A DNA stretch of 64,000 bases, from contig JACQZQ010000027.1 in assembly GCA_016213785.1 (NCBI GenBank), forward strand, positions 1 to 64,000, read 5' to 3'. Shown here one piece after another: positions 2,102 to 32,060 of the stretch. The notes under the pieces were generated by a model, which saw only the letters and a program-made list of their open reading frames with translations, was not told the DNA's origin and did not search any database. The stretch's first letter is position 1, and each line of letters starts with the position of its first letter. The stretch comes from Acidobacteriota bacterium. GTDB lineage: Bacteria; Acidobacteriota; Blastocatellia; Chloracidobacteriales; JADJPF01. The position numbers and the translations under genes were made by a program.

Positions 2102-3298
2102 TTATCCATTTCCTGTTATTTGCCCCATTATTTGATCAATTAATGTGTTAAGGCTGCTAGATTGTGCATTGGATAAAGTTGGGTTTAGATTTTCAGGTAA
2201 ATCTAGAGAAATAAACCACTTACCAATAATCTCATCATCACCATAGATGTTTACTAACTTAGCCCAATAATCCGTTAACTTTTTAACTGATTCTGTAGCT
2301 AAATCATTAGAATTTTGTTTGACATAAACAGGTTTTAGAAATGCATTTGCTAAAGACCAAAGTCCAGACTTACGTAGTACAACTAAAACAAAAGAAGGGG
2401 GGTTTTGTGCAGCCATGCTATTTTGTTTACCCGTAGGAATAGCTTTAACCGAAGCTTTAACAAAGGCTTGAATGGCTTTTAAGGTTAAATCTTCATCGTC
2501 ACTTAAATTATGTTTTAGCTGATTTAAGTCTATGTTTGCATAGCGATAGAAGCAAGCAGAGTTAAATTCTACAGTGCCAAGCATTCCTGCACCTTGGTCG
2601 TCTGAATTTGTGACTATATCGTCTACAGCAGTAAAAAAATCAAACTCTGTATTAACTTTATGTGTAGAAATAGCGTGAGCAACTTGGCAAGCAGCATCAA
2701 TATTTTTATCTGGTAGGCTTGCTAGCATGCGTCCAAATAAAGCTAAGTCTACAGCTTTGCCGCCATCCATTAAGTTGAGCATCCCATTAGTAATTTCTTT
2801 TGGAATAGGATCTTTAGCTTCGGAAGAGTCTTTGTCTTTTTTGCCCTTTTTGCTTGCTGCTTCTGGTTTTGCTGGGGTTTCATTGGAAGCGAGTTTTTCT
2901 AAAGTTTCCCAATTTTCTAAGCAAAGCGACACCATACGATTAATTTCGTCATTTCCTAAAAAAAGCAAAACATCGGTTAAATTTTTTTCTTTTAGTTTAG
3001 CAATCGTTTTAACAACAGTTTCAGCCACTAGTGAAGCTTGATCAGTTGGTTTTCCAGTTTTTTCCAGTTTTGTGGATAGTTCTTGAACTAACCTTTTAGT
3101 GCGAACAGCTAAATTGTTAGCAGGAATTATATTTGTTAATGTCTTTCTAAAAGCCTCTCTAACAGCGCGTTTTAGGCATTGGCTAGAGATACGAGCACGG
3201 CGAAATCCGCCAAAGTCACAATCTTTAGGTGCATTAGTGTCATCACGGTTTAAGTTAGATGGGGCAAAATTTTGAATTAAATGCATTTCTATAAACAT
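2102..3298 (-). CDS. cas7e: Cas7e (CasC/Cse4) Cascade backbone subunit
   Basis: Six copies of this protein coat the crRNA spacer in Cascade. They kink it every sixth nucleotide, so that position is not paired with target DNA. The protein has the family start (MHLIQNFAPSNLNRDDTNAPKD, then FGGFRRARISSQCLKRA) and the later motif VDLALFGRMLAS. At 398 residues it is slightly longer than the E. coli protein. The extra length may be the low-complexity charged insert near residues 145-165 (KPEAASKKGKKDKDSSEAKD). AGGAGG lies about 8 bases before the ATG. The sixth-position rule matters for the element upstream of cas3. Confidence 0.95.
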   Translation of the reverse strand: MFIEMHLIQNFAPSNLNRDDTNAPKDCDFGGFRRARISSQCLKRAVREAFRKTLTNIIPANNLAVRTKRLVQELSTKLEKTGKPTDQASLVAETVVKTIAKLKEKNLTDVLLFLGNDEINRMVSLCLENWETLEKLASNETPAKPEAASKKGKKDKDSSEAKDPIPKEITNGMLNLMDGGKAVDLALFGRMLASLPDKNIDAACQVAHAISTHKVNTEFDFFTAVDDIVTNSDDQGAGMLGTVEFNSACFYRYANIDLNQLKHNLSDDEDLTLKAIQAFVKASVKAIPTGKQNSMAAQNPPSFVLVVLRKSGLWSLANAFLKPVYVKQNSNDLATESVKKLTDYWAKLVNIYGDDEIIGKWFISLDLPENLNPTLSNAQSSSLNTLIDQIMGQITGNG

Positions 3299-3316: not shown

Positions 3317-3904
3317 TTAACTGTTAGATTCAAGTTGATTTTCAGGTTGATTTTCAGAGTCGTTGCTTTGGTTACTTTGACTACTCCAAAAAGCCTTTGC
3401 CCAATAGCGTTGAACAAAGCGTTCATCACTATCCCAGTTATTTAAGTCCCTAAGTAGTTGTAGCCAATCTATGGCTATATCTTTAGATTTAAGTAAACTG
3501 ACTATATGGCGAAGATGATTTGGTAGATCTTCTTTGCGGCAATTTAAGAGAGCTACAAAACGTTTTTCTATGCTGCCGCTATCATCTTTTAGCTTTGCAA
3601 AAGAAGCGCCTAAATTGTTTTTTAGAGGAGATTTATCACCATCAAGCCAGCTAATTTGGTGTAGTGCAAAAAGAGATGCTACTAAATAATAATCATCTGC
3701 AAGACGGTCACTTTCTGAGCTAGTAAAAGGAACAATATAAGGATGCACTTCTGTTGCTTCACTAGGGTTTTTGCCCAAGCCACGTCTTAATCTTGCTAGT
3801 GCTGCACGGTCAGGTTTTTTACCATTTTTGTCATCAGCTAGTTTTTGTAAAAAGCTAATAAATTCTTCTTTTTTTTGCGAAGTAGATTTATTTGGTTCTG
3901 TCAT
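3317..3904 (-). CDS. cse2: Cse2/CasB (Cas11e) Cascade small subunit
   Basis: The small helical subunit of type I-E Cascade, present as a dimer that stabilises the displaced DNA strand. It is recognised by position between cse1 and cas7e and by family features: ARLRRGLGKNPSEA near residues 38-52, then a central HQISWLDG segment and RFVALLNCRKEDLPNHLRHIV. The length of 195 residues fits the family (about 160-200). The acidic and Gln/Asn-rich tail is likely disordered. An AGGAGG lies only 4 bases before the ATG. It is co-transcribed with its neighbours, 18 bases ahead of cas7e. Confidence 0.9.
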   Translation of the reverse strand: MTEPNKSTSQKKEEFISFLQKLADDKNGKKPDRAALARLRRGLGKNPSEATEVHPYIVPFTSSESDRLADDYYLVASLFALHQISWLDGDKSPLKNNLGASFAKLKDDSGSIEKRFVALLNCRKEDLPNHLRHIVSLLKSKDIAIDWLQLLRDLNNWDSDERFVQRYWAKAFWSSQSNQSNDSENQPENQLESNS

Positions 3905-3958: not shown

Positions 3959-5527
3959 TTATGCTGATTGGTCTTTGGTCTTTTTCAAGTAAGGGCTTAG
4001 GGCAATATTAATATCTTTAGAAAAAGCATCTTCCACTTTGGCAACAGCTTTTAAGTTGTGGCTAGAAGTGTCTAAGCTTTTAGTAATGGATAAAAATGTG
4101 TTGGTAGCAGCTTTTTTAAGTACTCCTGCCCATTGTTTTAATTCATTCTGTCCATAAATAATGTCTTGGTTGTCGTCAAGCTCTTGATCTTCAGGGAGAT
4201 TAACAAGTAAGGTCTTAAAAGGTGGTTCAAGCTGTGCCCAATATTGGGTTGCTCCTCCAAAATGAGTTACTAGGTTTTTAACGTCTTTAGAATCAGGTTT
4301 TCGGCCTTCTTTTTGATCAGAGGTAGATGCAATCAGGAGTTCAGCTAATTTATTAAGGTGAGAGTTGATTTTCCAGGCTACATTTTCAGCTAATTTAATA
4401 GCTTGTTCTAATTTGTCTAAAAGTTCTTTGTTCTTTTCGTCTAAGTAATCTACTGGAACAGGTAATCGCTCTTGCCGCCAAAATTTTATTACTGTGGAAG
4501 GTGGTTTTAGAAATTGACCTATTACTTGTATTTGGTAAAGTCGCCTTTTTTCTAAAACGTCATTGTATGTAAGGGTCGCGATGTGATTTAGTGCTAGAGG
4601 GAGCTTATTAGAGGTTTTAGAAGATAAGCTAAATAAAGTTTGGCTGTCGCGCCAGACAGCTTTATCTTCTTGTAATTTCCAAAGTAACCAACCTTCTTGT
4701 TTATCTGGATAATACACACACATTGGATCAATAAAGTCTTCTTTTAGCGATAAGCCTTGAGCAAAAAAGCAGGTTTTTGCAAACTCTCCAGGAAATACAT
4801 ATAAGGAACGGCTCTGCAAAGTTAAGTAGTCTAATGCTCCCAATGGCGAGATTCCTTCTTTTGGTTCCCACAGCTTTTCTTGTTCCCAAATAGGCTTGTC
4901 TTCAAGAGTTTGGAATGGTAGTTGGTAGAAATTTAGCAAATTTAGAAGTAAAGTTTGGAAAAGATTGTCTCCTTGAACTAACACTATTGCTCCTACTGTC
5001 CAGGGTGCATTTTTGGTATGCAAAGTTTCACTTTTACCTGCCGAAACTGCAAATGCTTGGCTAGTTAGTAACCATTGTGTTGCTAGGGAAAGAGAAATAG
5101 GGTTTTCTTCGTCATCCCAACTATGTTCAAACCACCTAGCTGCATTACCTGCTGTAAATCCCCAGCCTAGTTTTTTGGTGGAAAAAGAGTTTTTTCTAGG
5201 TTGGCTGGATTGGTAAAAAGGCCATTCTGAGTGGAACAAATCAAAACGGTCGTGCCACTTGTCAAAATAATCTTTTATGGTTTCTTGGCAAAAATTTTGT
5301 TTTTTCCAATGCTTTTCCCACTCGTCTAGGCTTTTGAAAGGAAAATTGCGGTAAACAACGGCCAAAAGCAAGCGGTATAAAGCCACTGTGACTATAGGCG
5401 ATTGAGCAAAAATTTCTTGAATTTCATGTGCTTTAGTCAGAGTTTCTTTTAAGTTGAGTTCTTGCTGACTGCCATCGGCCATAATACAAGGAATCCAAGG
5501 CTTGTCAATTAAGTTAAATGAATACAT
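3959..5527 (-). CDS. cse1: Cas8e (CasA/Cse1) Cascade large subunit
   Basis: The large subunit reads the PAM, opens the DNA and recruits Cas3. The N-terminus YSFNLIDKPWIPCIMADGS is the family hallmark, and the middle has the conserved segments HSEWPFYQSSQ and AVSAGKSETLHTKNAPWTVGA. At 522 residues the length is normal, ending in the helical bundle domain (about residues 370-520). The gene is 18 bases downstream of cas3 and 54 bases ahead of cse2. Nothing looks broken, so PAM-dependent target binding should be intact, which is required for the self-directed regulation proposed at 8861-9040. Confidence 0.93.
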   Translation of the reverse strand: MYSFNLIDKPWIPCIMADGSQQELNLKETLTKAHEIQEIFAQSPIVTVALYRLLLAVVYRNFPFKSLDEWEKHWKKQNFCQETIKDYFDKWHDRFDLFHSEWPFYQSSQPRKNSFSTKKLGWGFTAGNAARWFEHSWDDEENPISLSLATQWLLTSQAFAVSAGKSETLHTKNAPWTVGAIVLVQGDNLFQTLLLNLLNFYQLPFQTLEDKPIWEQEKLWEPKEGISPLGALDYLTLQSRSLYVFPGEFAKTCFFAQGLSLKEDFIDPMCVYYPDKQEGWLLWKLQEDKAVWRDSQTLFSLSSKTSNKLPLALNHIATLTYNDVLEKRRLYQIQVIGQFLKPPSTVIKFWRQERLPVPVDYLDEKNKELLDKLEQAIKLAENVAWKINSHLNKLAELLIASTSDQKEGRKPDSKDVKNLVTHFGGATQYWAQLEPPFKTLLVNLPEDQELDDNQDIIYGQNELKQWAGVLKKAATNTFLSITKSLDTSSHNLKAVAKVEDAFSKDINIALSPYLKKTKDQSA

Positions 5528-5545: not shown

Positions 5546-8374
5546 TTAGCATTTTTTTAGACTGTTAATTACAATTCCAAGTTCTTCATCTAAAACGATT
5601 TCATAATTTGCCGTTGGACTTTCCCAACGACTAGAATTATTTAGTTTTATTAATCGGTGATTACGTAAGAGTGCTGATTTTTGCCAACCTTCAAGCACAG
5701 ATTGTTTTAGTAATTCGTGAACTAAGCCTTTGTGCTGTAAGTTTAAGGAATGTGCAAGAAAAAGCTTTGTTTCTTCCAAATTGGGTATGTGCTTTTCATC
5801 AATAAATTTACATTGGTCAGGCGTTAAAAGCACAATGGGGATAGAAGGCTCAGTTAAACGGGTTAGGGCTTGAAACTTTGGGTTAAGTTCTGGTTGGTCT
5901 TCTTTAAGGTCTTTGTAGCATTTTTCCAAAATATCATCTTTATCTTTTGGAGATGGAATTATCACGTCTTTAGCTAAAGTTTGATGGTTATGTAACTCTT
6001 TGATTTGCTCTTCTTTAGTAGACTTCCAGACTCCTTGTAATTGGGCGCTTAAGGTAGTAGGGCAGGGTAAATCTTGGTCATAAGCCGATTCTATTAAGTT
6101 TTCTATATCATTAGGAATTTGTATTTGAGAACAGTTAATCAAGCTTAACCAAGTTCGTAACAAAATATGTAGGTCATAAATTTTTTCTGTTGCATAGTCA
6201 AATTTAGGAACATTTTCAGATATTTCTGGCCGACAAATCCATAGAGTTGGAGTTGCTAAACTACTTAAACGGGAGCGTTTATGGCGATGTAATCGGCCTG
6301 AACGCTGTAAAACTAAATCAATAGGGGCAATGTCTGTTACCATCAAATCAAAATCTAAGTCTAAACTTTGCTCTATAACTTGAGTGGCAACTATCACTGC
6401 ACGGTTAGGACGATTGGGATTTATAACTTCATTATTTTCAGGATTTTTACCAAACAGTGCTAAAGCTTTCGTTTCTCTAACATCCCGATCTTTAAAGAAA
6501 TAACGTGCATGGAAGAGATGTAACTCACTATTAGCAAAAAAATTTTTTAGCTCTTTATAAACCTCTTGAGCGCGGGCTACGGTGTTACAAATAACTGCTG
6601 CACAACCTCCATCAGCTAAAGCTTTTGATAGTTTTTCTCCTAATTCAAATTTTTCTTCAGGATGTTTTGGTAGTAGACCATTAACCCAATCAATTGTTAA
6701 AGTCCGTCTAATTTGTTCTGAAACCGCTATGGTTTGGCTATTAAGCTCTGTTTTTGTTGCCCAACTAATACAAGGATAGCTTTGATTTAATTTACTAGTA
6801 TCAGCAGCAGTATCTGTTAAGTTTAATCCTCGATAATATGCTGCAAGTAAAGCATTACGGCGTGACTTTGGTAATGTGGCAGAAAGTAAAATAACAGGAG
6901 AACCTAAAACAGCTAGCCATTCTAACAATCGTTCTAGAAGCTGTGACATATAAACATCATAGGCATGAACTTCATCAATGATTACAACTTTGTGTGACAG
7001 CCCAAAAAGCCTTACAAAAACATGACGTGTTTGTAGTATGGCTAAAAGAGCTTGATCAACTGTGCCTACACCAAAAGGAGCGAGTAAGCCACGTTTACGA
7101 TGAGTAAACCATTCTGCCGCTATAACGTTCATTTCATGAGCACAACAATTTTTATCATCATCACTATAAACGCCATCTAGATGAAAAATTTTTTCTGCTC
7201 TTTCTTTCATTAAGCGAAATTCAGCAGATAAGGATGAATGCCCATGAAGTAGTTGTAAATGAACAGGCTGAGCAGGATAACGAGCTTCTAAAAATAGTTT
7301 GGTTCTATAAAACATTTGATTGCTGGTGGCTTGGGTAGGAAGTGCAATGTAAAAGCCTCTTGGCCCTGGCATAACACCAAATTTATCAGCAAGATATAAT
7401 GCTGCTTCGGTTTTACCTTCTCCCATAGGTGCTTCAACAATCACTATCGAAGGGGAGTCAAGTTTTTCTGCAAGGTTTATTGTTGCATTTTGGAGTGGGC
7501 GAAGGTTCTCTATTTTTGGAAAGAGATCAGAAAAACCTGATGGCTCACTTGCTTGTGACCAACCTAGCCAACCTAGTTTATTTAGCGCCTCACAGGCTTG
7601 TTTTTCAGCTTTTTGTAGGTAGGCTTGAATATCAAAACTAGGAAGTTGATTAAACTGTGTATAGTCTTGGATTTGATAGTGGAAGAAATCGCTATTTGAT
7701 CCTATCCAATCTGCTACAGAAACCAGTCCAGCAACAATCATTGAAATAGCATTGTCTGTTTTTTCAAGTTCTTGAGATATTGGTAACTCGTTTAGCTTAA
7801 AAAGAGCAATTAACAATTTAACAAACTCGTTTCTTACCTTTATCCAAGGGGTTTTTCCTGCTCCATCTGACCGGTAATTTTGCTGTAGTTCTAAACTAGT
7901 TGGGAAAGTTCCATGATGGCCTCCAATAACTTTTGCGATCTGGCACGCTAATTTTTTATTTATGTTAAGCTCCTGTTTTAATATATTGGGTAGCTCACCT
8001 GCTGTAACTCGACCATGAGGAATATCACTAGGTTTGATTCCAATTGGAGGTTGCCCCATATTTATCAAGTCAAATAAATGTTTAGCCTCGGGTCTTAATT
8101 GAAAAGCAGGGGAGGCTTTCCCAAGGTCATGTAAGGCTGCAAGAAACATTATCCATTGTTCTGTTTGTTCTAAAGTTAAGCCAAAAGCTTTAGTAATACG
8201 TTCTCTAGCAATAATGGAAAATGTTAGTCTCCAAAGCTCTCTAGTTGCTGCTGCAACATCAAGCATATGGCAAATAAGCGGATGAAATTGATTTAAGTTA
8301 GTGTTGTCTTTATCGTGGGGAAGTTTTGCCCAAAAACGAAAAATATTATCTGTATTAAGATTAAGTTCAGCCAT
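5546..8374 (-). CDS. cas3: Cas3 HD nuclease-helicase of type I-E
   Basis: Cas3 is recruited by target-bound Cascade to nick, unwind and degrade DNA. The order is an HD nuclease domain (about 20-250: HPLICHMLD near 31-39, LHDLGK near 81-86, GGHHG near 151-155, VADWIGS near 220), then an SF2 helicase. In the helicase, Walker A MGEGKTEAAL is near 317-326, DEVH near 467-470, then SATLP and QRSGRLHRH. A C-terminal domain follows. The length of 942 residues is normal and all catalytic motifs are present. AGGAG precedes the ATG. A weak promoter could start with TTGACC at 8447-8452, just inside the end of the upstream small ORF. Otherwise transcription may come from the strong promoter at 8973-9000. 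Confidence 0.96.
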   Translation of the reverse strand: MAELNLNTDNIFRFWAKLPHDKDNTNLNQFHPLICHMLDVAAATRELWRLTFSIIARERITKAFGLTLEQTEQWIMFLAALHDLGKASPAFQLRPEAKHLFDLINMGQPPIGIKPSDIPHGRVTAGELPNILKQELNINKKLACQIAKVIGGHHGTFPTSLELQQNYRSDGAGKTPWIKVRNEFVKLLIALFKLNELPISQELEKTDNAISMIVAGLVSVADWIGSNSDFFHYQIQDYTQFNQLPSFDIQAYLQKAEKQACEALNKLGWLGWSQASEPSGFSDLFPKIENLRPLQNATINLAEKLDSPSIVIVEAPMGEGKTEAALYLADKFGVMPGPRGFYIALPTQATSNQMFYRTKLFLEARYPAQPVHLQLLHGHSSLSAEFRLMKERAEKIFHLDGVYSDDDKNCCAHEMNVIAAEWFTHRKRGLLAPFGVGTVDQALLAILQTRHVFVRLFGLSHKVVIIDEVHAYDVYMSQLLERLLEWLAVLGSPVILLSATLPKSRRNALLAAYYRGLNLTDTAADTSKLNQSYPCISWATKTELNSQTIAVSEQIRRTLTIDWVNGLLPKHPEEKFELGEKLSKALADGGCAAVICNTVARAQEVYKELKNFFANSELHLFHARYFFKDRDVRETKALALFGKNPENNEVINPNRPNRAVIVATQVIEQSLDLDFDLMVTDIAPIDLVLQRSGRLHRHKRSRLSSLATPTLWICRPEISENVPKFDYATEKIYDLHILLRTWLSLINCSQIQIPNDIENLIESAYDQDLPCPTTLSAQLQGVWKSTKEEQIKELHNHQTLAKDVIIPSPKDKDDILEKCYKDLKEDQPELNPKFQALTRLTEPSIPIVLLTPDQCKFIDEKHIPNLEETKLFLAHSLNLQHKGLVHELLKQSVLEGWQKSALLRNHRLIKLNNSSRWESPTANYEIVLDEELGIVINSLKKC

Positions 8375-8448
8375 AAATAAAACTCCTAGAATGTGTTGAG
8401 AGAGTTTATTGATAAAACTCCAGCATTTTTTTTATTTCTGTGTAAGGG

Positions 8449-8613
8449 TCAAATAGGTTGTTGTACAGATTTTGTTGACCGCCTAGGTTTTTTGATTTTT
8501 CTTGTGCTAAAACCTATTGTAAAAACAATAAGATAGCCTTGGCCCCTAAAAAATTTTCTTACCAAGGTGCCACCCATGTAAATGACCACTACAGTTATTA
8601 GTAAAACTGACAT
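8449..8613 (-). CDS. small hydrophobic/basic protein between crRNA-like element and cas3
   Basis: This 54-codon reading frame starts with ATG behind AAGGAG at an 8-base spacing, a strong ribosome site. The product has a hydrophobic N-terminus (MSVLLITVVVIYMGGTLV), a basic FFRG joint, a second hydrophobic stretch (YLIVFTIGF) and a strongly basic tail (RKIKKPRRSTK). It is not a recognised Cas protein. It is oriented like the cas genes and ends 74 bases before cas3. Hydrophobic-plus-basic design is common among membrane-acting small toxins but also among harmless small membrane proteins, so function is open. Position beside a crRNA-like element invites comparison with CreT toxins. The good Shine-Dalgarno and clean frame make translation likely. 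Confidence 0.6.
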   Translation of the reverse strand: MSVLLITVVVIYMGGTLVRKFFRGQGYLIVFTIGFSTRKIKKPRRSTKSVQQPI

Positions 8614-8753: not shown

Positions 8754-8785
8754 TTCTGATAAGCTATGTAATTAAAATTTAAGTT

Positions 8786-8835
8786 GCCTTCTTATAAAAA
8801 ACATAAGCATATTTTGTAAGAAGGCTTTTATTTTG
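8786..8835. terminator. strong hairpin, likely terminator/attenuator after the crRNA-like unit
   Basis: GCCTTCTTA (8786-8794) pairs perfectly with TAAGAAGGC (8817-8825). The stem extends through A-T pairs to about 13-14 bp. On the plus strand a T-rich run TTTTATTTT follows; on the minus strand the following run is less U-rich (AACTTAAATTTT). It would end a short minus-strand transcript from 8973-9000 after the repeat-spacer-repeat, or partially attenuate read-through to the small ORF and cas3. Confidence 0.6.
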
Positions 8836-8860: not shown

Positions 8861-8952
8861 CAATTCACCCCCACAAAACGTGGGGATATTCAATCAAATT
8901 TGAGAATTTGAGAAACGAGAAACCGGTTCACCCCTAAAAAATAGGGAACGCA
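8861..8952 (-). CRISPR. degenerate repeat-spacer-repeat unit (crRNA-like RNA, CreR/CreA-like)
   Basis: Two type I-E-like repeats, read on the minus strand, flank a 34-base spacer-like segment. The first, at 8924-8952, ends in GGGGTGAACCG. The second, at 8861-8889, ends in GGGGGTGAATTG. Both keep a hairpin with different stems: CCCTA/TAGGG in the first and CCCCAC/GTGGGG in the second. So the fold is retained while the sequence differs; they share about 16 of 29 positions, mostly in the 3' half. The eight-base GTGAACCG handle left by Cas6e cleavage is in place before the spacer (8890-8923). Only one spacer exists, and it sits upstream of cas3, not beside cas1-cas2 where I-E arrays normally grow. 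This resembles the crRNA-resembling RNAs CreA/CreR rather than an immune array. A decayed two-repeat array is the alternative. Confidence 0.72.
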
Positions 8953-8972
8953 TAATGTTTTTGCTTAACCAA

Positions 8973-9000
8973 ACTATAACAGTTATCATTTAGCTGTCAA
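8973..9000 (-). promoter_or_regulatory. consensus sigma-70 promoter for the crRNA-like RNA
   Basis: On the minus strand a perfect -35 TTGACA (9000-8995) is followed by a 16-base spacer and a -10 TATAGT (8978-8973). The predicted start near 8966 lies about 14 bases before the first degenerate repeat at 8952. It points toward the crRNA-like unit, small ORF and cas3. Its -35 box is 5 bases from the end of the self-matching site at 9006-9037. Confidence 0.75.
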
Positions 9001-9005
9001 GAGTT

Positions 9006-9040
9006 TTCGGCAGGTGAGAATTTGAGAAACGCGAAACCTT
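9006..9040 (-). promoter_or_regulatory. self-target (protospacer plus AAG PAM) of the crRNA-like spacer
   Basis: Read on the minus strand, AAG (9040-9038) is followed by a segment matching the crRNA-like spacer at positions 1-23 except position 6. The other nine of a 32-base protospacer (9014-9006) are almost all mismatched. AAG is a standard I-E PAM, and position 6 is one of the bases flipped out in Cascade. Cascade should bind but form an incomplete R-loop. The site ends 5 bases before the TTGACA box at 8995-9000 and 16 bases before the DUF2071 start at 9053. Confidence 0.7.
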
Positions 9041-9052
9041 AAAATTTATTTA

Positions 9053-9775
9053 ATGCCAAGTAACCCACTTACAATGGTTGGACATATTGACCGTTGCTGG
9101 CTTTTTACTTATCAAACGCCAGTTGATGATGTAAAAGATTTGCTGCCTAAAAATCTGTCTTTAGTTACTTACCAAAATTATGCTTTTTGGAATGTGGTGA
9201 TTTCTCATATCCAAGCTATGAGGCCAAAATATACACCTAAGATTTTTGGACTAGATTATTGGCATATAGCTTATCGACTATATGTTAAATTCCAGCCTCT
9301 TAATGGAGAGACAATCGAAGGGCTTTATTTTTTACATAGTGATTCTAATAGCAGTTTAATTAACCTAGCTGGTAACTTATTGACAAACTTTAATTTACAC
9401 CCTGCTAGCATAGAAATTAAAGAGCAAAATCAAACCCTAGAAATTGAAATTAAATCATCCTCTACGCCTGCAAAAATAGTTTTAGAACCAAATATAGAGG
9501 CTAGATTGCCCGCTCACTCTGCTTTTTCTTCTCTAGAAATGGCAGGCAATTTTCTAAAATATAAACCTAATGGAATAGCAATTAATTCTGATGGCAGTGC
9601 TAATGTAATTCATATAACACGATGTGAAGAAAATTGGTGCTATCAATTAATAGAAGTAAAATCAGCTGAATGGACTTTTTTTAAGGACAAAAATATTAAA
9701 CCTGAGGTTTGTTATCAAGTTGAGCCTATTGATTATCAATGGAACCAAGGAAAAAATTATAAAATAGTTTTGTAG
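9053..9775 (+). CDS. DUF2071 (YqjF-like) family protein
   Basis: This 240-residue protein resembles the DUF2071 family, beta-rich and related to acetoacetate decarboxylase-like folds, with no settled function. Visible family features are an early RCWLFTYQTPVDDVKDLLPKNL segment, a central WHIAYRLYVKF strand, and a late CYQVEPIDYQW end. There is no signal peptide. No good ribosome site precedes the ATG at 9053, so the true start may be the ATG at 9074 or elsewhere. The gene is divergent from the crRNA-like element. A possible plus-strand promoter (TTGCTT at 8961, TATCAT at 8984) would place the self-target site within its 5' leader, so Cascade bound there could also impede it. Confidence 0.75.
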   Translation: MPSNPLTMVGHIDRCWLFTYQTPVDDVKDLLPKNLSLVTYQNYAFWNVVISHIQAMRPKYTPKIFGLDYWHIAYRLYVKFQPLNGETIEGLYFLHSDSNSSLINLAGNLLTNFNLHPASIEIKEQNQTLEIEIKSSSTPAKIVLEPNIEARLPAHSAFSSLEMAGNFLKYKPNGIAINSDGSANVIHITRCEENWCYQLIEVKSAEWTFFKDKNIKPEVCYQVEPIDYQWNQGKNYKIVL

Positions 9776-31082: not shown

Positions 31083-31295
31083 GTAGAGACTCCTTCGAAA
31101 AGTTCTAAGGACTAGGCTTGCTCAACTCGACGACCGAGCAACGACGGTGCTCGTTTTGGATTTACAGAATATTCACAGCAAAATGAGCACCGTCGTTAGC
31201 TCGGTCAAAATGAAGAGCAGACTAGTGAAGCGTGATGAAACTACCGACAAGGAAAGCGATCCACTTTCCAGATTGCAAGGAAAAGTCGTCTCTAC
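31083..31295 (-). ncRNA. retron msr-msd RNA, copy 1 (nearest the RT)
   Basis: Read on the minus strand, the ends pair: GTAGAGAC (31295-31288) with GTCTCTAC (31090-31083), the a1/a2 stem. An msr-like part follows with a GGAAAG/CTTTCC hairpin. The long msd hairpin spans 31132-31206, with outer stem GACCGAGC/GCTCGGTC and inner stem CGACGGTGCTC paired with its complement. The arms are joined by a tip whose core resembles the other copies. A TATAAT-like box lies at 31316-31321, just before it. The RT start is about 95 bases downstream. Confidence 0.88.
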
Positions 31296-31326
31296 TCCTG
31301 TAACAAACTTAAAGTATTATAACGAG

Positions 31327-31555
31327 TTTGGCTAAAATGAGTGACCTTCGAAAAGTTCTAAGGACTAGGCTTGCTCAACTCGATGCCCGAGCAAGGCCAG
31401 GCGCGGATTTAGATTTATAAAATCCTCACCGAAATCCGCGCCTGGCCTTAGCTCGGGCAATAGTGAAGAGCAGACTAGTGAAGCATGACAGAACTACCGA
31501 CAAGGAAAGCGATCCACCTTCCAGATTGCAAGGAAAAGCCTTCATTTTAGCCAAA
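31327..31555 (-). ncRNA. retron msr-msd RNA, copy 2
   Basis: The end stem is 14 bp and perfect: TTTGGCTAAAATGA (minus strand 31555-31542) with its complement at 31327-31340, unlike any other copy. The msd hairpin spans 31385-31458, with outer stem GCCCGAGC and inner arm AGGCCAGGCGCGGATTT. The msr hairpin reads GGAAGG/CTTTCC with one G-U pair. A perfect TATAAT (31564-31559, minus) ends 4 bases before the a1 end, so the copy may have its own promoter. Confidence 0.88.
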
Positions 31556-31590
31556 GCTATTATAAAACCTTTGTTTCTTAAGCTAATTAT

Positions 31591-31815
31591 CCTAAAGTAT
31601 CCTTCGAAAAGCTCTAAGGACTAGGCTTGCTCAACTCGACGCACTAGCAATACTAGTATCGTCTTTTGATTTATAGAATCTACACAGAAAAGGCGATACT
31701 AGTATTAGCTAGTGCAAAATGAAGAGCAGACTAGTGAAGCATGATGAAACTACCGACAAGAAAGGCGATACACCTTTCAGATTGCAAGGAAAAGCCTACT
31801 CTAAGATACTTAAAG
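31591..31815 (-). ncRNA. retron msr-msd RNA, copy 3
   Basis: The end stem is at least 7 bp (GATACTT at 31805-31811 with AAGTATC at 31595-31601). The msd hairpin spans 31641-31715, with outer stem GCACTAGC/GCTAGTGC and inner arm ATACTAGTATCG. The msr hairpin is GAAAGG/CCTTTC, a compensated change against GGAAAG/CTTTCC of copies 1 and 4. The tip keeps the GATT-TAT-AATC mini-hairpin. Confidence 0.87.
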
Positions 31816-31846
31816 AAACAAATATAAACTTAATAATTTGAGCAAA

Positions 31847-32060
31847 TTGCAAGAATATCTTCGAAAAACTCTAAGGACTAGACTTGCTCAACTCGACGCA
31901 CTAGCAACGAAAGCCTTTTCTTTAGATTTATAAAATCCACACTGAAAGAAAAGGCTTTCGTTAGCTAGTGCAAAATGAAGAGCAGACTAGTGAAGCATGA
32001 TGAAACTACCGACAAGGAAAGCGATCCACTTTCCAGATTGCAAGGTTCTTTTGCCTGCTG
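31847..32060 (-). ncRNA. retron msr-msd RNA, copy 4 (farthest from the RT)
   Basis: The msd hairpin spans 31898-31971. Its outer stem GCACTAGC is the same as in copy 3, but the inner arm ACGAAAGCCTTTTCTTT differs. The msr hairpin is GGAAAG/CTTTCC. The end stem is the weakest of the four: GCAAGAA near 31848-31854 pairs with TTCTT-TTGC near 32046-32054 only with a bulge. A candidate promoter lies directly upstream at 32071-32098. Confidence 0.82.

Follow-up and report, generated by a model that had tools for sequence, protein, structure and literature searches.

Upstream of the type I-E cas operon of this acidobacterium, two degenerate repeats enclose a spacer that matches an AAG-flanked site close by. 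The evidence moderately favours a model in which the RNA of this mini-CRISPR resembles a crRNA and belongs to the CreR/CreA class; guided by it, Cascade would repress a neighbouring promoter. Coordinates refer to the window, the 64,000-nucleotide stretch of DNA that was analysed (Table 1).

The preliminary description had reported that positions 1-23 of the spacer match 9037-9015, 114 bp away, except at position 6, that AAG lies directly beside position 1, and that the nine PAM-distal bases (24-32) are almost all mismatched. Alignment reproduced each of these points: guide and target differ at positions 6, 24, 25 and 27-32, with agreement at 22/23 bases over positions 1-23 and at 1/9 over positions 24-32. 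As a direct repeat, the two copies (8901-8924 and 9015-9038) extend over 24 nt with 96% identity and a spacing of 114 bp. A chance match of this quality had been called very unlikely, and this was borne out when the 678-bp intergenic region was dinucleotide-shuffled 300 times: the best 23-mer match averaged 14.0 and never exceeded 17/23; the binomial probability of a 22/23 match is approximately 2e-11 per site. The genome-wide search that had been proposed returned no better match in the organism's own 6.4-Mb assembly: with up to 3 mismatches allowed the guide matches only the spacer and target sites, and AAG followed by guide positions 1-5 and 7-11 occurs once, at the target. The boundary between matched and mismatched bases is sharp, unlike the outcome of uniform drift (P ~7e-6 for at most 1 of the 9 mismatches falling within the first 23 positions). 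A lone mismatch falling at position 6, one of 23 positions, carries little weight in isolation, but the same position is mismatched in two further mini-CRISPRs (L080 and L120).

Table 1. Features of the mini-CRISPR locus and the adjoining genes (window coordinates).
Feature	Position	Strand	Details
Spacer (guide), 32 nt	8923-8892	minus	GTTTCTCGTTTCTCAAATTCTCAAATTTGATT
Target, protospacer positions 1-23	9037-9015	minus	22/23 identical to guide, mismatch at 6
Full 32-nt target stretch	9037-9006	minus	GTTTCGCGTTTCTCAAATTCTCACCTGCCGAA
AAG PAM	9040-9038	minus	adjoins protospacer position 1
psiR1, degenerate I-E repeat	8924-8951	minus	GCGTTCCCTATTTTTTAGGGGTGAACCG; hairpin retained; 8-nt handle GTGAACCG
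psiR2, degenerate I-E repeat	8861-8891	minus	GAATATCCCCACGTTTTGTGGGGGTGAATTG; handle GTGAATTG
Sigma70-type promoter	9000-8973	minus	TTGACA-16-TATAGT with TG extended -10, 11/12; consensus match only
Candidate divergent promoter	8961-8989	plus	TTGCTT-17-TATCAT, 8/12, weak; found by eye, below promoter-scan threshold
Candidate mini-ORF	9022-9042	plus	TTG AGA AAC GCG AAA CCT TAA; AGGTGA at 9012-9017; within target; creT-like candidate
54-aa ORF	8449-8613	minus	hydrophobic, basic tail; AAGGAG ahead (good Shine-Dalgarno); between mini-CRISPR and cas3
WYL-regulator gene remnant (3' end)	8407-8439	minus	29/33 versus the WYL gene that precedes cas3 in G001
DUF2071 gene	9053-9775	plus	second gene of an operon in G001
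cas3	5546-8374	minus	HDLGK, GEGKT and DEVH motifs (HD and helicase)
cse1/casA	3959-5527	minus	
cse2/casB	3317-3904	minus	
cas7/cse4/casC	2102-3298	minus	
cas5e/casD	1347-2096	minus	
cas6e/cse3	621-1346	minus	
cas1e N-terminal half	107-532	minus	interrupted by IS, near contig edge

Both repeats have diverged in sequence from the true array repeat, yet each retains the stem and the 8-nt handle; in the psiR1 stem, a C-G pair is replaced by U-A. The 90-nt mini-CRISPR RNA is predicted to fold better than its shuffled counterparts (z -2.4). The locus shows three features of a CreR: a mini-CRISPR with a pair of degenerate repeats stands beside a cas operon, the PAM-flanked partial complementarity includes positions 1-5 and 7-11, and the genome itself supplies the matching effector, Cascade with Cas6. 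The sigma70-type promoter is the strongest of the intergenic region and lies ~20 bp ahead of psiR1. Since a promoter scan of the minus strand between psiR1 and cas3 revealed no other strong promoter and no clear terminator, it may serve the 54-aa ORF and the cas operon as well as the mini-CRISPR. The distal end of the target (9006) falls ~5 bp upstream of its -35 element. The candidate divergent promoter overlaps it on the opposite strand. Relative to the mini-CRISPR's own promoter the target is upstream, and relative to the weaker divergent candidate it is downstream. An Rfam search returned only a sub-threshold match to PrrF (E 0.21), and that identity was rejected. Between the mini-CRISPR and the 54-aa ORF there is also an inverted repeat (GCCTTCTTA / TAAGAAGGC, ~8783-8822, loop ~22 nt), and in plus-strand orientation TTTTATTTTG comes after it.

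Downstream of the mini-CRISPR, the minus strand carries an intact cas3-cse1-cse2-cas7-cas5-cas6 operon. The C-terminal half of cas1e is found together with cas2 and the CRISPR array on a second contig, C83 (L055; G000:C83 9931-10370), and both cas1 breakpoints carry an inverted repeat GGGAGCAATACCCGTTTAT and the common sequence CATTACCAC (target duplication); the IS within cas1e is probably also the cause of the contig break. The C83 array contains four exact repeats ATCATCCCCACGCCTGTGGGGGTAAACCG and spacers of 32 nt, the same length as that of the mini-CRISPR. The gene set, the 29-nt repeats and the 32-nt spacers are those of a type I-E system, with cas1 interrupted by the IS. Judged from its genes, interference looks intact and adaptation broken. 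A second cas1, complete and accompanied by a CRISPR-like array of 74-nt period, is located at G000:C103 67120-67980 (L051), and a CRISPR system of a different kind therefore seems to coexist in this genome. Elsewhere in the window, positions 31091-32045 hold a tandem array of a 256-bp unit in 3.8 copies.

For transcription, processing, binding, repression and the identity of the regulated promoter, we infer the following course. Cas6e would trim the mini-CRISPR RNA to a guide with the handle GUGAACCG, which would load into the cell's own Cascade, and the guided complex would bind the AAG-flanked target beside the sigma70-type promoter. In one haloarchaeal CreA, positions 1-5 and 7-11 are needed and sufficient, with positions 6 and 12 dispensable (PMC8501985), while six PAM-distal mismatches block R-loop locking, the step before Cas3 recruitment (PMC9718816). 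Because eight of the nine distal positions are mismatched here, binding without attack is the expected outcome: with pairing ending at base 23, neither R-loop locking nor Cas3 recruitment should follow, and the complex would stay in place as a repressor. Reviews describe CreRs that repress cas promoters in types I-B, I-E and V-A (PMC13131331, PMC12737573). Repression here would most likely fall on the promoter of creR itself. That promoter is the best candidate for the small ORF and the downstream cas genes as well. The result would be a negative feedback that strengthens as more Cascade is free and weakens once crRNAs or anti-CRISPRs engage it.

The core of the earlier proposal, a site suited to Cascade binding but not to attack by Cas3, agrees with every point that could be tested. 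A guide made for binding is supported by the intact Cascade genes, the right PAM, a mismatch at a tolerated position and nine largely mismatched distal bases, by the failure to find a protospacer in viral, plasmid or other genomic sequence, and by the same design in two independent I-E loci. Several points argue against the repression model. The target lies outside the -10 and -35 elements of any candidate cas-gene promoter, such that repression would need steric overlap with upstream RNA polymerase contacts, and the cas promoter is itself a candidate assignment. Moreover, 22/23 is longer than needed, as the published CreAs that were consulted pair over 10-17 bases.

For comparison, 80 cas3 loci from a set that spans 84,980 species were combined with 16 class-level regions, giving 96 cas3-upstream regions screened besides the window. 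The screen sought a repeat-like handle and then a guide that agrees at positions 1-5 and 7-11 with a site next to AAG; positions 6 and 12 were left free, and a single mismatch at either is therefore not surprising. With AAG, four loci matched (the window, L059, L080 from Thermomicrobiales and L120 from Ktedonobacterales), compared with 0 or 1 for other triplets and one match in 10 runs with shuffled guides. L059 was set aside as an ordinary array with similar spacers. A target-first screen had also pointed to L080 and L120; its further match, L061, was likely false and was removed by the stricter screen. When the 80 loci were searched for repeat-pair hairpins upstream of cas3, L059 and L100 proved to hold real arrays and L080 a degenerate pair; the first repeat pattern used for screening had been too loose, and its output was noise.

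In L080 and L120, both in Chloroflexota genomes, a degenerate I-E mini-CRISPR has a partial match, flanked by AAG, at the strongest cas3-facing promoter, a screen result for which ~0.1 matches would be expected by chance. In L080 (mini-CRISPR about 5365-5440, minus strand; target near 5654), CTATAgTCTCTgCT pairs with a site just past an 11/12 promoter facing cas3, and in L120 (mini-CRISPR 5289-5371, plus strand; target near 5495), GAGGTgTTGGTgCAA pairs with a site that has its PAM within the -35 element of a 10/12 cas3-facing promoter. The paired lengths are 14 and 15 nt, respectively (mismatches at positions 6 and 12 allowed). Both guides are mismatched at positions 6 and 12, and none of the three mini-CRISPRs pairs at position 6. 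As judged from their sequences, natural guides of this design occur at candidate cas-facing promoters in related I-E systems. The model gains no support from guide-target co-variation, as a search of 58 relatives for the same element gave no DNA match and no close relative has an orthologous mini-CRISPR.

The history of the locus was reconstructed by comparison with G001, a sister genome and the only one of the same genus, in which a WYL regulator precedes cas3 (the two cas3s are 64% identical). Only the last WYL codons are left in the window, where the mini-CRISPR and the 54-aa ORF occupy the place. Since WYL genes at 54-57% identity also stand ahead of cas3 in several related loci, the regulator is probably ancestral to the locus and was lost here. 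Replacement of WYL by CreR as a general rule was rejected because L120 has both, which counts against WYL loss as a general condition of the model. On the other side of the mini-CRISPR, homology to G001 begins at 9051, marking the end of the inserted cas cassette. The DUF2071 gene of G001 follows a membrane-protein gene after a gap of 10 nt, and a close relative of the latter is found in this genome on C83, beyond the CRISPR array. From these positions, together with that of DUF2071 at 9053, it follows that the cas cassette is inserted into an operon that is intact in G001. The target is located inside the cassette, at its very end, and the DUF2071 gene beyond it is conserved (dN/dS ~0.09 versus G001).

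The main alternative, which we consider unlikely, is an addiction module resembling CreTA or CrePA. Here guide and Cascade would repress a divergent plus-strand transcript (start near 8996) carrying the mini-ORF, and loss of Cascade would release a toxin. The I-F CreTA of Acinetobacter has the same layout, with a Shine-Dalgarno-preceded mini-ORF divergent from creA, a target downstream of the creT promoter, 17/20 bases paired and position 6 unpaired (PMC10097628). In the window, a plus transcript would carry the target in its 5' portion, a position suited to a roadblock; the combination of Shine-Dalgarno and mini-ORF, looked for post hoc, arises in 0.3% of shuffles of 8996-9052, and the GCG codon of the mini-ORF is rare here (2.2 per 1000 codons). 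However, the plus promoter is weak, the mini-ORF sits inside the target itself, unlike in Acinetobacter, and no toxin is recognisable. In a less likely variant, the guide would repress the gene of the 54-aa hydrophobic protein (8613-8449). This ORF belongs to no known family, no convincing relative of it was found, and its identity as a known toxin was rejected. The more specific proposal of an I-E addiction module, with a 22/23 guide in the ancestral WYL place holding down either a divergent mini-ORF toxin or the 54-aa protein, is quite unlikely. The creR/cas transcript and the divergent mini-ORF/DUF2071 transcript are both candidates for the regulated transcript, with the creR promoter the more likely.

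It is also doubtful that the element is a relic, that is, a self spacer taken from adjacent DNA and tolerated after its distal end had changed, with decaying repeats and no regulatory role. Spacer acquisition would account for the AAG and for the 24-nt identity that includes the PAM G, and the degenerate repeats and broken cas1 are in keeping with such an origin. The preliminary description had argued that simple duplication would not be expected to place the PAM correctly; acquisition of a spacer from self DNA, in contrast, would do so, and the PAM alone is therefore not proof of regulation. However, neutral decay would not erode 8/9 distal bases and leave 22/23 proximal ones in place (the P of ~7e-6 given above), nor would it preserve the hairpins, the handle and a strong promoter, and independent loci share the design.

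That the 24-bp direct repeats are protein operator sites or a plain local duplication, with an incidental resemblance to CRISPR, is very improbable: the two copies do flank a promoter, 114 bp apart, but one lies exactly between two I-E-like hairpins, with handle and spacer length as they should be, the PAM beside the other is correct, and no third genomic copy was found at up to 3 mismatches. A defensive spacer of the ordinary kind, directed at a phage or plasmid, as the location between repeats might suggest, is scarcely credible and was rejected, as the repeats differ from the array repeat, the element stands alone with its own promoter, and no foreign protospacer was detected in viral contigs (searched with patterns tolerant at every sixth base) or in phage or plasmid records.

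The phenomenon had initially been presented without saying that its kind is known, and that kind is already known as CreR/CreA. Like the CreRs of types I-B, I-E and V-A (PMC12737573, PMC13131331), the element is a mini-CRISPR beside a cas operon with its own promoter, a PAM-flanked partial match to the neighbouring promoter region and its own Cascade available. It differs in its match of 22/23, compared with 14-15 nt in the parallel loci L080 and L120, and in a target that lies upstream of the mini-CRISPR's own promoter, the strongest cas-facing candidate, rather than at a proven cas promoter. With the CreA of CreTA (Haloarcula I-B, PMC8501985; Acinetobacter I-F, PMC10097628) it shares two degenerate repeats, a site beside the cas operon and a seed paired at positions 1-5 and 7-11 with position 6 unpaired, and with the Acinetobacter system also the divergent layout; unlike CreTA, it has no recognisable toxin, pairs over a longer stretch and belongs to type I-E. 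The Francisella scaRNA/Cas9 system (named in PMC9458426) is similar in that a CRISPR-derived small RNA directs an effector to repress transcription via a partial match, but that system is type II, with another RNA and other target genes.

The element is thus best described as a member of the CreR/CreA class, unusual for its long match and the placement of its target. These results would extend natural Cascade-based repression to the I-E system of a probably uncultured acidobacterium, together with two I-E cases in Chloroflexota, and they provide an example of a protein regulator beside cas genes that was lost where a guide now stands. The broken cas1 would also protect the cell from priming at the partly matched self site. 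The natural match is unusually long (22/23), yet it ends before a full R-loop. Should it be functional, it would be a natural measure of how much pairing with the host chromosome is tolerated in the presence of an active Cas3 system.
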